In this document: piece by piece, positions 3,018-9,503 of the stretch
How the letters are laid out: each line of letters begins with the position of its first letter
Numbering within the stretch: the stretch's first letter is position 1
NCBI GenBank assembly: GCA_025456205.1
Contig: JALOLA010000001.1
Span: forward strand, 1-64,000
Length of the DNA: 64,000 nt
Source of the DNA: Acidobacteriota bacterium
GTDB taxonomy: Bacteria; Acidobacteriota; Aminicenantia; UBA2199
Direction: 5' to 3'
The notes under the pieces: model-generated
Told to the model about the DNA's origin: nothing
What the model saw: only the letters and a program-made list of their open reading frames with translations
The model's database searches: none
Translations under genes and position numbers: made by a program

Positions 3018-4025
3018 ATGAAAAAAACACTGGTCTTTATCGTCATGCTCATTGCGCTCAGTTTGTCCATGCTCTTCGCCCTGGACAAGGAGCAGGTCGA
3101 CTCCTGGACCGCCCTGGTCGGAGAAAAGGACCTGCAGGTCAAAATGCAGAAACTGGAAGCTTATTACAATAAATACGGCGCCAGGGAAGACCGTTATTCC
3201 ATGTACATGTACATCCACCTGGCCCAGACCACCTACATGCTGCAGCAATATGACAAGACCATCCAGTTCGGGGAAAAGGCCCTGACCTACAAGGAGATCG
3301 ACGCCAGCAACAAGCTGCCGCTCTACCTGTACTTGGCCAACTCCTACAACCTGACCAAAAAAGACCTGGACAAGGCCTACGATTACGCCGAGCAGATGAT
3401 CGTTCTCGCCAATTCACTGCGCAGCGAGACCCAGAGCAACTCCGCCATCGACATCAACTTCACCGCGCCGGCGCTGCGCATCCAGGTCCAGCTGCTGGCG
3501 CTCAAGGCCAATGACCCGCAGAGCGCGGATACCGCCTTCAAAAAATCGCTGGAAGCGTACCAACTTGACAAATCAGAAAAATCGGCCAACTTCGTGCTGA
3601 AATTGAGCGAGCACCTGCTCAAGATGAACAAGACCGAGGACGCCATCCGCGGCCTGGAAGCCATCAACCAGGACAAGCCCAACTATGAATACCACAAGCT
3701 GCTGGGTACATGGTATGCGCGCCTCAAGAACAACGTCAAGGCCATCGAGAACTTCAAGGCCTCCTACGGATTGAAGAAGAGCGCCCAGGTGGCGTACAAC
3801 CTGGGCATCCTGCTGAACCAGAACCAGGAGATCGACACCGCCCTCGAGTACCTGGCCGAATCCCACCTTCTGAATGATGAAAAGTACTCCCCCGAGGCCT
3901 TCAAGCTGTTCGAGCACCTTGTTTTCTTCGAAAAAACGAAAGGCCAGCCCCAGCCCGAGCAGGAAAAAGTGTACAACGAGATCCTGACCGCGGCCAAGGC
4001 CCGCCTGGGCATCACTCTGCCCTGA
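3018..4025 (+). CDS. exported tetratricopeptide-repeat protein
   Basis: 335 residues. The signal peptide covers about residues 1-21 (MKKTLVFIVMLIALSLSMLFA) with no lipobox cysteine. The rest is helical, with TPR-like repeats such as AEQMIVLANSLRSE, YHKLLGTWYARLKN and VAYNLGILLNQNQEIDTALEYL, so it is likely a periplasmic protein-interaction scaffold. No enzymatic domain is visible. A GGAGGA ribosome site and a near-perfect promoter upstream suggest high expression as a single-gene unit. The partner is unknown; the divergent M16-like pair is the nearest candidate, but adjacency alone supports that. Confidence 0.8.
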   Translation: MKKTLVFIVMLIALSLSMLFALDKEQVDSWTALVGEKDLQVKMQKLEAYYNKYGAREDRYSMYMYIHLAQTTYMLQQYDKTIQFGEKALTYKEIDASNKLPLYLYLANSYNLTKKDLDKAYDYAEQMIVLANSLRSETQSNSAIDINFTAPALRIQVQLLALKANDPQSADTAFKKSLEAYQLDKSEKSANFVLKLSEHLLKMNKTEDAIRGLEAINQDKPNYEYHKLLGTWYARLKNNVKAIENFKASYGLKKSAQVAYNLGILLNQNQEIDTALEYLAESHLLNDEKYSPEAFKLFEHLVFFEKTKGQPQPEQEKVYNEILTAAKARLGITLP

Positions 4026-4153
4026 CCGGGCACGAGGCGTCTGGAACTCCGGGCCGCGGATTCCCTTTTCTAAAAGAGAGGAAATCCTATGATTTTTAAT
4101 CCACTCACAAATTTATGCAGTAGTTGACCAAGCAGGCAATTGATCTGGTAGGA

Positions 4154-4301
4154 CTCAAGCACCAAGTTCCAAGCACCAAACTCCAAACAAGTACCAAATT
4201 CCAATGACCAAATGACCAAAACGAAGAAAAGACACTTGAAATAGCTTTTTAGTTTGGGACATTGAATTTATTTGGGATTTGGTGCTTGGTGCCTGGAATT
4301 T
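4154..4301. repeat. AT-rich imperfect palindromic element in a 365-base gene gap
   Basis: The gap 4026-4390 has no plausible gene. It holds a low-GC block unlike its surroundings. The left arm (about 4155-4205) contains repeated CAAGCACCAA, CCAAGCACCAAA and ACCAAATTCCAA; the right arm (about 4253-4301) contains the complementary TTTGGGA, GGTGCTTGGTGCC and GGAATTT. Within the left arm the unit also repeats directly with a period of about 10-12 bases. This resembles a non-coding, MITE-like dispersed element that could fold into a long hairpin. No transposase is present. Whether it is multicopy needs the whole genome. Confidence 0.6.
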
Positions 4302-4390
4302 TCTCCCATCCCTCGCTCTTCTGGCCCCAACTTTATCCTTGCTAACCCAAATCCATGCCCGAATTTACGCGAGGAAGCGATTTTGTTTGT

Positions 4391-5434
4391 TTAGGCCCCG
4401 AGCAGGATTTGGCGCTGGTTCCCGACCCGGCAGGTGACGTTCTGCCGGTCCCAGTATTCAAAAAGGACGATCAGGTATTTGCGGCTGTAGGCGGTCAGGG
4501 CGCGCAGGTCGTCGAAGGTCATGATGTCGCCCTGGTTGCGCTTGAATTTTTTCAGGCGGTTGATCAGCTTGGCGTATTCCTCGCTGAAAATGAAATAGCG
4601 CTCGTCCAGCTGCAGGAACTTTTCCTCGTTGACCATGTACCACAGCGCGTCGTTGATCTGCTTGAGGGTATAGGCGGTATTTTTCTGCACGTTCTCGAAG
4701 GTGAAGACCGGCAGCTTGTTCGCCCGCAGCACTCGCTCGATGTCGGCGATGCGCGTCTTTTCCTCCTCGCTCAACGGCAGCTGGGAGAAGATCAGCGCCT
4801 GGGGCATGATGCGGCAGGGGAATTCTTGGCTGCTCTTTTTCAGCAGGTACTTGAAGAAGACCGATTCCTGGGGAACCTTGACGGCCTTTTCCAGCTGGGC
4901 GAACTTGACGGTCCGCTCGCGGCTTGCATAGGCCGCGCGCAGGACCTTCTCCATGGCGGCGAGGCTCTGCAGGAAGTGGTCCCAGGAAGTGACGAACAGG
5001 TAGTTGAGGTTGATCACCTTCGCCTGCCGGGCCAGCTCCAGCTGGGTCAGCATGTCGACGGCCTGCCGCCGTTCCAGCGAAAAGAAGTACAGCAGGCCCT
5101 CCATTTCCAGGAAGTTCTCGACGGCCAGCAGCGCCGGCACAACCTCGCGGAAATCCTTTTCCTCGATACCGGCGAGGAGCTCGCCCAGACGCTTCATCTT
5201 TCTCTGGTTGTATTGCGAGAGGACGGGCAGCAGCACCGTAAAGCCGCCGCGCACGTTCTTGAAGTCGATCCTCTGGCGGAAGGTGAGCTCGACCTGGCTC
5301 ATGAAGTGGACCGTGAAAAGGTCGCCGCTGATTCTGCGGAAGCTTGCGGCCAGGCTTGCGCCGCCGAGCTGGATGCTCCCCTGGAAACTATCCTGGGAAT
5401 GGGCGAGCCGGACGAAATAGGCGTTGAACCTCAT
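4391..5434 (-). CDS. SelB C-terminal-like protein without a GTPase domain
   Basis: 347 residues. The last ~40 residues (DLRALTAYSRKYLIVLFEY then WDRQNVTCRVGNQRQIL) match the final winged helix of the selenocysteine elongation factor SelB, which in SelB binds the SECIS hairpin. The middle looks like the preceding SelB winged helices. The N-terminal ~70 residues (RISGDLFTVHFMSQVELTFRQ, then RGGFTVLLPV) resemble the end of SelB beta-barrel domain III. Full SelB is about 600-650 residues; the GTPase and domain II are absent, and an in-frame TGA lies two codons before the ATG (5441-5443). It could be a decayed selB, a split gene whose GTPase is elsewhere, or a stand-alone nucleic-acid-binding protein. 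It lies 64 bases downstream of the GT2 gene and may share its transcript. Confidence 0.6.
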   Translation of the reverse strand: MRFNAYFVRLAHSQDSFQGSIQLGGASLAASFRRISGDLFTVHFMSQVELTFRQRIDFKNVRGGFTVLLPVLSQYNQRKMKRLGELLAGIEEKDFREVVPALLAVENFLEMEGLLYFFSLERRQAVDMLTQLELARQAKVINLNYLFVTSWDHFLQSLAAMEKVLRAAYASRERTVKFAQLEKAVKVPQESVFFKYLLKKSSQEFPCRIMPQALIFSQLPLSEEEKTRIADIERVLRANKLPVFTFENVQKNTAYTLKQINDALWYMVNEEKFLQLDERYFIFSEEYAKLINRLKKFKRNQGDIMTFDDLRALTAYSRKYLIVLFEYWDRQNVTCRVGNQRQILLGA

Positions 5435-5498
5435 GGCCTTTCAAAACGGCCGGGGCGGGGACGGCAGCGGCTTGGGCGCGGGCATGTTCGAGCCGGGA

Positions 5499-6998
5499 TC
5501 AGCCGGCGATGCTGACGCTGGCCTTCTTGACCGGCAGCCGGTTCTTCAGGAGGGTCGAGAGCGAAAGGAAGGAGATGTACAGGTAGCCGTACTGGAACAT
5601 CAGCAGGAAAGGCAGGGTCAGCCAGATGCCCTCGGAGATGCAGGTGATCACAGCGAAGGTGAAATAGAAGCCGAGGACAAGCTCGGTTGCGGTGATGAAG
5701 AGGTTCTTGTTGCCCTTGTATTTTTTTGACGCCCAGTGGTCGTTCTTTTTCTCGATGCCGAACTTGGGGGTGCGCACGAACTCCGATTCCTTGTTCATCA
5801 GGGCTTCCACGACGGCGAACGAGTTGTTGATCGACAGCCCGATGCCCAGCCCCATGAGCAGGGGGAGGTAGCGGAAGGTGACGGTCCAGTTGGAATAAAG
5901 CTCCTTCTGCGAGACGATGTAGAACGCCCCGACGGAAGCGGTGGCCATGAGGAAGAGGGGAACGTCGTAAATGAACATCTGTCCCCAGTTCATGTCCCGG
6001 CGCATCAGGACCACCGGCAGGATGGAGACCGACAGCGGCACCATCAGCAGGTAGGCGAAGTTGGCCGCCAAGTGGAAGAAGGCTTCGCTCTTCACCCGCC
6101 ACGGCAGGCGCGCCCGGAAGATCGTGGGCAGGAGCTTCTTGGCCGTCTGGATGGAACCCTTGGCCCAGCGGTGCTGTTGCGCCTTGAAGGCCACGACATC
6201 CGCGGGCAGCTCGGCCGGGACGGAGAAATCGGGGAGGTAGACGAACTGCCAGCCCTTCATCTGCGTGCGGTAGCTCAGGTCCAGGTCCTCGGTCAGGGTG
6301 TCGTGCTGCCAGCCGCCGCCGTCGATGATGGCGGCCTTGCGCCAGATGCCGGCCGTGCCGTTGAAATTGAAGAAGCGGCCGGAGCGGTTGCGCGCCGTAT
6401 GCTCGATGACGAAATGGCCGTCGAGGAAGATCGACTGCAGGTTGGTGATCAGCGAAAAATTGCGGTTCAGGTGGCTCCAGCGCATCTGCACCATGCCGAT
6501 GTTGGGCGTGGTGAAGAAATGGATGGTGTTGGCCAGGAAGTGCTTGTGGGGGATGAAGTCGGCGTCGAAGACGGCGATGAATTCGCCCTTGGCCACCTTC
6601 ATGCCTTCCTCCAGGGCGCCGGCCTTGTAGCCCTTGCGGTTCTGGCGGTGCAGGTAGGAAATATCGAGCCCCTGCGCCTTGTACTGCTCGACGCAGCGCG
6701 ACGCGATGGCCACGGTCTCGTCGGTGGAGTCGTCCAGGACCTGGATCTCCAGGAGCTCGCGGGGATAGTCCATTTTCACCACGGCATCGATCAGGCGCTT
6801 GGCCACGTACATCTCGTTGTACATGGGCAACTGGATGGTCACCCGCGGCAGCTTCTCGAAGCGGCCCGCCGGCAGGGGCGCGGCCTTCTTGTTCTTATAA
6901 TAAAGATAAACCATGAAATAGCGGTGGGCGCCGAAAACGGCCAGGATTGAAAGCACCACAAAATAAAGCACGACCACAAATTCGTTTAGGTTTTCCAT
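5499..6998 (-). CDS. membrane-bound family 2 glycosyltransferase (processive, cellulose-synthase-like)
   Basis: 499 residues. An N-terminal membrane helix (about 5-35) is followed by a cytoplasmic GT-A domain with all processive GT2 signatures: IQLPMYNE near 55, DDSTDET from Asp89, DAD at 145-147, TED at 236-238 and QQHRW at 274-278. Several membrane helices follow (about 310-370 and 420-490). This layout is that of cellulose synthase, mannan or beta-glucan synthases and ceramide-glucosyltransferase relatives, which polymerise or transfer a nucleotide sugar and may extrude the product. The substrate cannot be read from the sequence. There is no BcsB- or PilZ-like gene beside it. Its ribosome site is GGGGAG, and the SelB-like gene follows. 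Confidence 0.88.
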   Translation of the reverse strand: MENLNEFVVVLYFVVLSILAVFGAHRYFMVYLYYKNKKAAPLPAGRFEKLPRVTIQLPMYNEMYVAKRLIDAVVKMDYPRELLEIQVLDDSTDETVAIASRCVEQYKAQGLDISYLHRQNRKGYKAGALEEGMKVAKGEFIAVFDADFIPHKHFLANTIHFFTTPNIGMVQMRWSHLNRNFSLITNLQSIFLDGHFVIEHTARNRSGRFFNFNGTAGIWRKAAIIDGGGWQHDTLTEDLDLSYRTQMKGWQFVYLPDFSVPAELPADVVAFKAQQHRWAKGSIQTAKKLLPTIFRARLPWRVKSEAFFHLAANFAYLLMVPLSVSILPVVLMRRDMNWGQMFIYDVPLFLMATASVGAFYIVSQKELYSNWTVTFRYLPLLMGLGIGLSINNSFAVVEALMNKESEFVRTPKFGIEKKNDHWASKKYKGNKNLFITATELVLGFYFTFAVITCISEGIWLTLPFLLMFQYGYLYISFLSLSTLLKNRLPVKKASVSIAG

Positions 6999-8816: not shown

Positions 8817-9503
8817 ATGAAGATATCGGCGGTGATCATCACCTACAACGAAGAGGACCGCCTGCCCGACGCCCTGGCCAGCCTGCGGGAAGTGGCCGAC
8901 GAAATCGTCGTGGTCGACTCCCATTCGACCGATCGCACCGTGGAGATCGCCCGGGAGGCCGGGGCCAGGGTCATGCAGAACCGCTTCGAGGATTACGGCC
9001 AGCAAAAGAATTTTGCCATGGCCCAGGCCGGCCATGAATGGGTGCTCAACCTGGATGCCGACGAGCGGGTCTCCCCGGATCTGCAGCGCGCCATCGCCGG
9101 GCTGAAGGAAAAGGATGTTCCGACCGGCATCGCCGCCTTCGCCATCAAGCGCAAGACCTACTACCTGGGGCGCTGGATCCGTCATTCGGGGTGGTATCCC
9201 GACCGCAAGGTGCGCCTCTTCCGCAAAGACGCCGCCGCCTGGCAGGGGCGGGTCCATGAACGCCTCGATGTGCGGGGCGCCGTAGCCCGTCTGGACGGCG
9301 CCATCCTGCACTTCACCTACCGCGACATCCTGCGCCTGGCCATCCTGCCGCCCGTCACTTTCCTACGCCACTACGTATGGAGGCTGGGCGTGCTCGACGG
9401 CTACCCGGGGCTGGTCATCGCCACGGTCCAATCCTGGGGAACGGCCATGAAATACCTGAAAGCCATCGCTTTTAAGCGCCGCAACACCGGAACGCAAGCC
9501 TGA
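8817..9503 (+). CDS. family 2 glycosyltransferase, LPS-core (WaaE-like) type
   Basis: 229 residues. A typical GT2 start (ISAVIITYNEEDRLPDAL) is followed by the nucleotide-binding VVVDSHSTDRT, NLDADERVS as the DxD-like metal site, and a C-terminal block SGWYPDRKVRLFRK and WQGRVHERL, which marks the WaaE/KdtX-type lipopolysaccharide core transferases. No membrane-spanning segment stands out, although the C-terminal ~50 residues are amphipathic. It probably adds a sugar to lipid A core or a related glycan at the inner face of the membrane. The start ATG follows GGGAAGGAG; an upstream in-frame ATG at 8796 lacks a ribosome site. Sugar donor and acceptor are unknown. Confidence 0.85.
   Translation: MKISAVIITYNEEDRLPDALASLREVADEIVVVDSHSTDRTVEIAREAGARVMQNRFEDYGQQKNFAMAQAGHEWVLNLDADERVSPDLQRAIAGLKEKDVPTGIAAFAIKRKTYYLGRWIRHSGWYPDRKVRLFRKDAAAWQGRVHERLDVRGAVARLDGAILHFTYRDILRLAILPPVTFLRHYVWRLGVLDGYPGLVIATVQSWGTAMKYLKAIAFKRRNTGTQA

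Follow-up and report, generated by a model that had tools for sequence, protein, structure and literature searches.

The locus and its protein

An open reading frame that starts with ATG and encodes 347 residues occupies nt 4391–5434 on the minus strand of the window, by which we mean the whole stretch of 64,000 nucleotides analysed. The relatives of its genome and the matching contigs belong to Candidatus Aminicenantes. The features of the locus are as follows.

3018..4025 (+), convergent gene for a TPR protein, conserved at 26 loci of the family (Pfam and locus comparison)
4391..5434 (-), stand-alone SelB C-terminal half, domain III and winged helices WH1–WH4, 347 aa (Pfam, phmmer, AlphaFold model, Foldseek, hhalign)
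4394..4585 (-), winged helix 4, residues 284–347, corresponding to the SECIS-binding domain of SelB (Pfam SelB-wing_3; the best-conserved part)
4478..4483 (-), codons of R318-K319, part of the SRK(Y) motif (R606-K607 in the alignment with M. thermoacetica SelB)
4586..4783 (-), winged helix 3, residues 218–283 (AF2 model, Foldseek)
4784..4984 (-), winged helix 2, residues 151–217 (AF2 model, hhalign; SelB-wing_2 in orthologues)
4985..5206 (-), linker helix and winged helix 1, residues 77–150 (AF2 model, hhalign)
5207..5434 (-), degenerate beta-barrel resembling domain III of SelB/EF-Tu, residues 1–76, about 75 aa (AF2 model, Foldseek, hhalign)
5441..5443 (-), in-frame TGA two codons 5′ of the start (upstream stop, no Sec codon)
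5499..6998 (-), GT2 glycosyltransferase, co-directional 5′ neighbour (Pfam)

Pfam SelB-wing_3 matches residues 298–342, the last winged helix, with E=1.3e-10, and the same search gave no match of the protein to the GTPase domain PF00009. In phmmer against solved structures the best matches were C-terminal fragments of M. thermoacetica SelB (1LVA, E=3e-5, residues 194–343). Alignment of a profile of 24 orthologues to one of 17 Acidobacteriota SelBs by hhalign reached a probability of 100 and E=1e-45 over SelB positions 319–645; the N-terminal domain III part taken alone is weak (E=2e-4). The AlphaFold2 model built from the 24-orthologue alignment has a pLDDT of 92 and consists of a small beta-barrel (residues 1–70) followed by four winged helices (77–343). 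The top Foldseek matches to this model in the PDB are SelB structures, namely the ribosome complex 5LZB, whole SelB 4ZU9, and C-terminal fragments, with the SECIS-bound fragment 1WSU at TM 0.86 by target length. The barrel was placed on domain III of eIF2-gamma and EF-Tu.

The Foldseek matches and the profile alignment to SelB 319–645 demonstrate that the 347-residue protein is SelB from domain III onward, without the GTPase domain and without domain II. Domain III is seen in the model, degenerate and weak by sequence alone, and the four C-terminal winged helices with the SECIS-binding motif of WH4 are present. The preliminary description, which had read the gene as an orphan C-terminal half of SelB lacking the GTPase, is thus borne out by Pfam, phmmer, hhalign, and the AlphaFold model with Foldseek; the predicted fold does contain the SelB winged helices. 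By membership the protein is not a SelB, since the GTPase was looked for and is absent. Against TIGR00475, the NCBIfam model for selB, it scores 19.4 bits, short of the 242 bits set as the cut-off for the full-length family.

The protein shares with domain IV of bacterial SelB (WH1–WH4; PDB 1LVA, 1WSU, 2PJP, 2UWM, 2PLY) the fold, the order of the four winged helices, and the preceding domain III. Unlike bacterial SelB, it has no GTPase domain or domain II and stands in a genome without Sec machinery, and it cannot deliver Sec-tRNA.

The start lies two codons after an in-frame TGA, as had been described; AAG and GCC separate the TGA (5441–5443) from the ATG. A role of this TGA as a Sec codon is excluded by the lack of tRNA-Sec in the genome and of the TGA itself in some congeners. 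No SelB GTPase was found upstream of the TGA in the same frame in the relatives examined. The gap 5′ of the gene aligns poorly, with no clearly conserved element among the upstream regions of relatives compared, and an Rfam search of the window returned tRNAs only.

The upstream glycosyltransferase noted before is a real GT2 enzyme, 64 nt from the short gene, and adjoins it only in the window's genus. A functional tie between the two was dropped, the neighbourhood being confined to the genus. The space separating the TPR gene from the short gene contains, at nt 4140–4320, a long imperfect inverted repeat of the CCAAATTCCAA/TTGGGATTTGG type, seen by eye; it resembles a repeat element.

Selenocysteine machinery and conservation of the short gene

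In the window's genome (87% complete), searches for full or GTPase-only selB, selA, selD, and tRNA-Sec, the genes singled out in the preliminary description, all came back empty: selA and tRNA-Sec were not found, selD had no match above the cut-off, and no gene for a SelB-type GTPase rose above the general EF-Tu/IF-2/EF-G background. Five of 60 relatives hold selA above the cut-off, and the same five carry selB above the cut-off. Rfam matches to tRNA-Sec that lie just above the cut-off in relatives were identified by ARAGORN as tRNA-Ser(TGA) at all six loci tested, and true tRNA-Sec occurs in G059 and G019. The short gene is also present in genomes of 98–100% estimated completeness that have no selA above the cut-off. 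It had been proposed that selB is split, so that a GTPase encoded elsewhere would pair with the short half for selenocysteine insertion. The domain content alone agrees with this; the missing selA, selD, tRNA-Sec, and SelB-type GTPase, together with the near-complete genomes, make it extremely improbable.

Of 118 Aminicenantia genomes, 114 have a match. Matches in 64 of the 64 class genomes with a completeness of 90% or more, and in every one of the 49 genera, confirm the conservation in relatives that the preliminary description had raised. Nearly all matching class genomes carry the short form; G046 has a full SelB only and G050 a fragment only. About 20 loci within the class read as full-length SelB; for most of them, the genome contains the short gene as well. 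In Acidobacteriota outside Aminicenantia, nearly all matches fall within frames of 620–800 aa, that is, full SelB, and the restriction of the short form to Aminicenantia is shown only within the phylum.

The gene is exactly 1044 nt in 13 congeners. Among congeners, the median pairwise dN/dS is about 0.18 overall, 0.22 for domain III, and 0.12 for WH4, ratios that are rough because synonymous sites are near saturation. The gene is under purifying selection, strongest in WH4. A decaying selB pseudogene, another of the readings first offered, would account for the lost N-terminus and the vanished Sec machinery. It is contradicted by the constant length, the dN/dS, the near-universal presence in the class, and the coexistence of the short gene with full-length SelB in several genomes, and we give it practically no credence. 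The short form belongs to the conserved core genes of a class whose members are mostly without selenocysteine.

Gene order and origin of the short form

Across the class the short gene belongs to an operon of the order valS-birA-pantothenate kinase-unknown-rnr-(pgi)-short gene, in which valS, birA, and the pantothenate kinase were named by eye from the sequence. In families f3–f9, f62, f63, and f64 it lies directly behind rnr or rnr-pgi, often with a 4-nt overlap. This arrangement would suit a cofactor or substrate adaptor of RNase R. An rnr orthologue was looked for in f1, the window's family, and is absent; the short gene, conserved in f1 as well, lies at a different locus. Since f1 keeps the gene without rnr, an RNase R partnership is not its general role, and we consider such an adaptor improbable.

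Other observations were made at these loci. A convergent gene for a protein of 700–750 aa with a lysine/glutamate-rich tail (L085:9638-11887, and cluster 4 at other loci) is a conserved neighbour of the short gene in most families, f1 being an exception; no Pfam family matches this protein above the cut-off. At L095:9801-10133 (G053) and on the minus strand of L097 at about 9265–9340 (G036), the last 16–24 codons of the short gene are repeated directly behind it, twice in G053 and once in G036. The repeats have the same stop position and many synonymous differences, and are separated by short palindromes (CAGTCCTAACCCTCAT...ATGAGGGTTAGGG). They have the appearance of small elements which, on insertion at the 3′ end of the gene, supply it with a recoded substitute for that end.

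The position next to glucose-6-phosphate isomerase (pgi) recurs outside the class. Full-length selB lies 10–63 nt behind pgi in three genomes from other classes of the phylum (G078, G140, G082). In Aminicenantia families f2, f3, f5, and f6 it is the short gene that follows pgi, at a distance of 6–17 nt or with a 4-nt overlap. In other Acidobacteriota, full-length selB directly behind pgi was observed at L103, L106, and L108. Full-length SelBs of other Acidobacteriota, those of L103, L106, and L108 among them, have the most similar winged-helix region and, like the short gene, adjoin pgi in some genomes; unlike the short form, they are 620–670 aa with a GTPase. In G048 (L101:5988-8657), pgi and the SelB C-terminal half are fused in one frame of 889 aa. 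The two parts of this fusion are joined by a charged low-complexity linker, and related genomes have them as separate genes.

The short forms make up a size series of about 470 aa with domain II, 347–375 aa, and about 258–273 aa with WH1–4 only. In family f5 (467–471 aa) a degenerate domain II is retained; the profile alignment extends over SelB 209–646, and Foldseek aligns the f5 form with EF-Tu across some 185 columns (E=2e-7). The forms of family f9, of about 258–273 aa, contain WH1–4 only. In the tree, the short forms fall in one clade (93/89) and the full SelBs of the class in another (88/93), with moderate support and some long branches. The short forms and the out-of-class SelBs have IPLLE and R341 in common, in contrast to A323 and H341 in most in-class SelBs. 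Against the short-form profile, the winged-helix region of out-of-class full SelBs scores up to 174 bits, versus 38–103 bits for in-class SelBs.

Descent of the short form from SelB is clear, and the simplest history is in-place truncation of an ancestral full-length selB, the in-class full SelBs having arrived either by transfer or by an older duplication. The ancestral selB would have lost its GTPase domain as the Aminicenantia lineage gave up selenocysteine. Domain II would then have been shed stepwise, and in one family domain III too, leaving the four winged helices to persist as a core gene throughout the class.

The WH4 motif and the predicted role

The motif SRK(Y)...E..D....T.R....R of WH4 is common to bacterial SelB and the short form. 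Among the short forms, R318 is conserved at 97%, K319 at 94%, E326 at 100%, D329 at 97%, T334 at 100%, R336 at 94%, and R341 at 97%, as in SelB, and the net charge of WH4 is +4.5 versus +4.9 in SelB. In the alignment, R318-K319 correspond to R606-K607 of M. thermoacetica SelB, numbered by counting from residue 377 of 1LVA, and R606 presumably contacts the SECIS. Judged from these residues, the RNA-recognition motif of SelB is retained in the short forms; some of the conserved residues may be partly structural.

To our knowledge, the only role described for the winged helices of SelB is that of an mRNA-binding arm on the GTPase that delivers Sec-tRNA. The 347-residue protein would, by analogy, work like this arm. 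WH4 would grip a structured (hairpin) RNA as SelB does the SECIS, with neither tRNA nor GTP, and the protein would act as a constitutive binder of RNA hairpins that controls the translation of one or more mRNAs, or their stability.

The preliminary description had also raised recruitment of the SECIS-binding module for another RNA or for DNA. Recruitment is the reading that survives, and RNA is favoured as the predicted target because the RNA-recognition motif of WH4 is retained. Winged helices are a common DNA-binding fold, and the protein is basic (pI 9.5), as a transcription regulator built from such domains might be. A DNA-binding regulator is nevertheless unlikely, for the RNA-site motif of SelB in WH4 is nearly unchanged and the gene occurs throughout the class with no constant neighbour gene and no divergent promoter arrangement.

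The main rival to a hairpin-specific protein is a ribosome-associated factor, whose winged helices would still sit close to where mRNA enters the 30S subunit, like those of ribosome-bound SelB, and exert a general effect on decoding, stalling, or rescue. All four winged helices are retained, including those without SECIS contact in SelB, and even the family with WH1–4 only still has all four; domain III persists in most families, and the best structural match is 5LZB, SelB on the ribosome. Conservation nevertheless peaks in WH4, the mRNA-binding domain, and we regard a general ribosome factor as possible at perhaps one chance in a few.

The best overall explanation is that the short gene probably encodes a SelB-derived, GTPase-free, and selenocysteine-independent protein of the class that is predicted to bind RNA hairpins. 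The class-wide retention of the RNA-gripping half suggests that the module acquired a new role connected with RNA. More tentatively, and with somewhat less than even confidence, this GTPase-free SelB descendant could be a regulator with SECIS-like hairpin targets of its own, a SECIS-binding protein that has outlived selenocysteine.

A counterpart exists in the archaeal aSelBL, or 'EF-Pyl', which keeps the GTPase part of SelB and lacks the C-terminal SECIS-recognition extension, and which occurs in archaea mostly without selenocysteine (PMC3037878). Both are SelB descendants in organisms mostly without selenocysteine. The two differ as mirror images, in that the short form keeps only the C-terminal extension and domain III.

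A partial search of the literature turned up no earlier description of a SelB C-terminal protein standing alone. The intermediate forms in Aminicenantia show the successive loss of N-terminal domains alongside an unchanging WH4. If the short form binds RNA, it would allow the recognition specificity of the SelB arm to be studied in an independent system, and would constitute a family of RNA-binding regulators now annotated as SelB or left unnamed.
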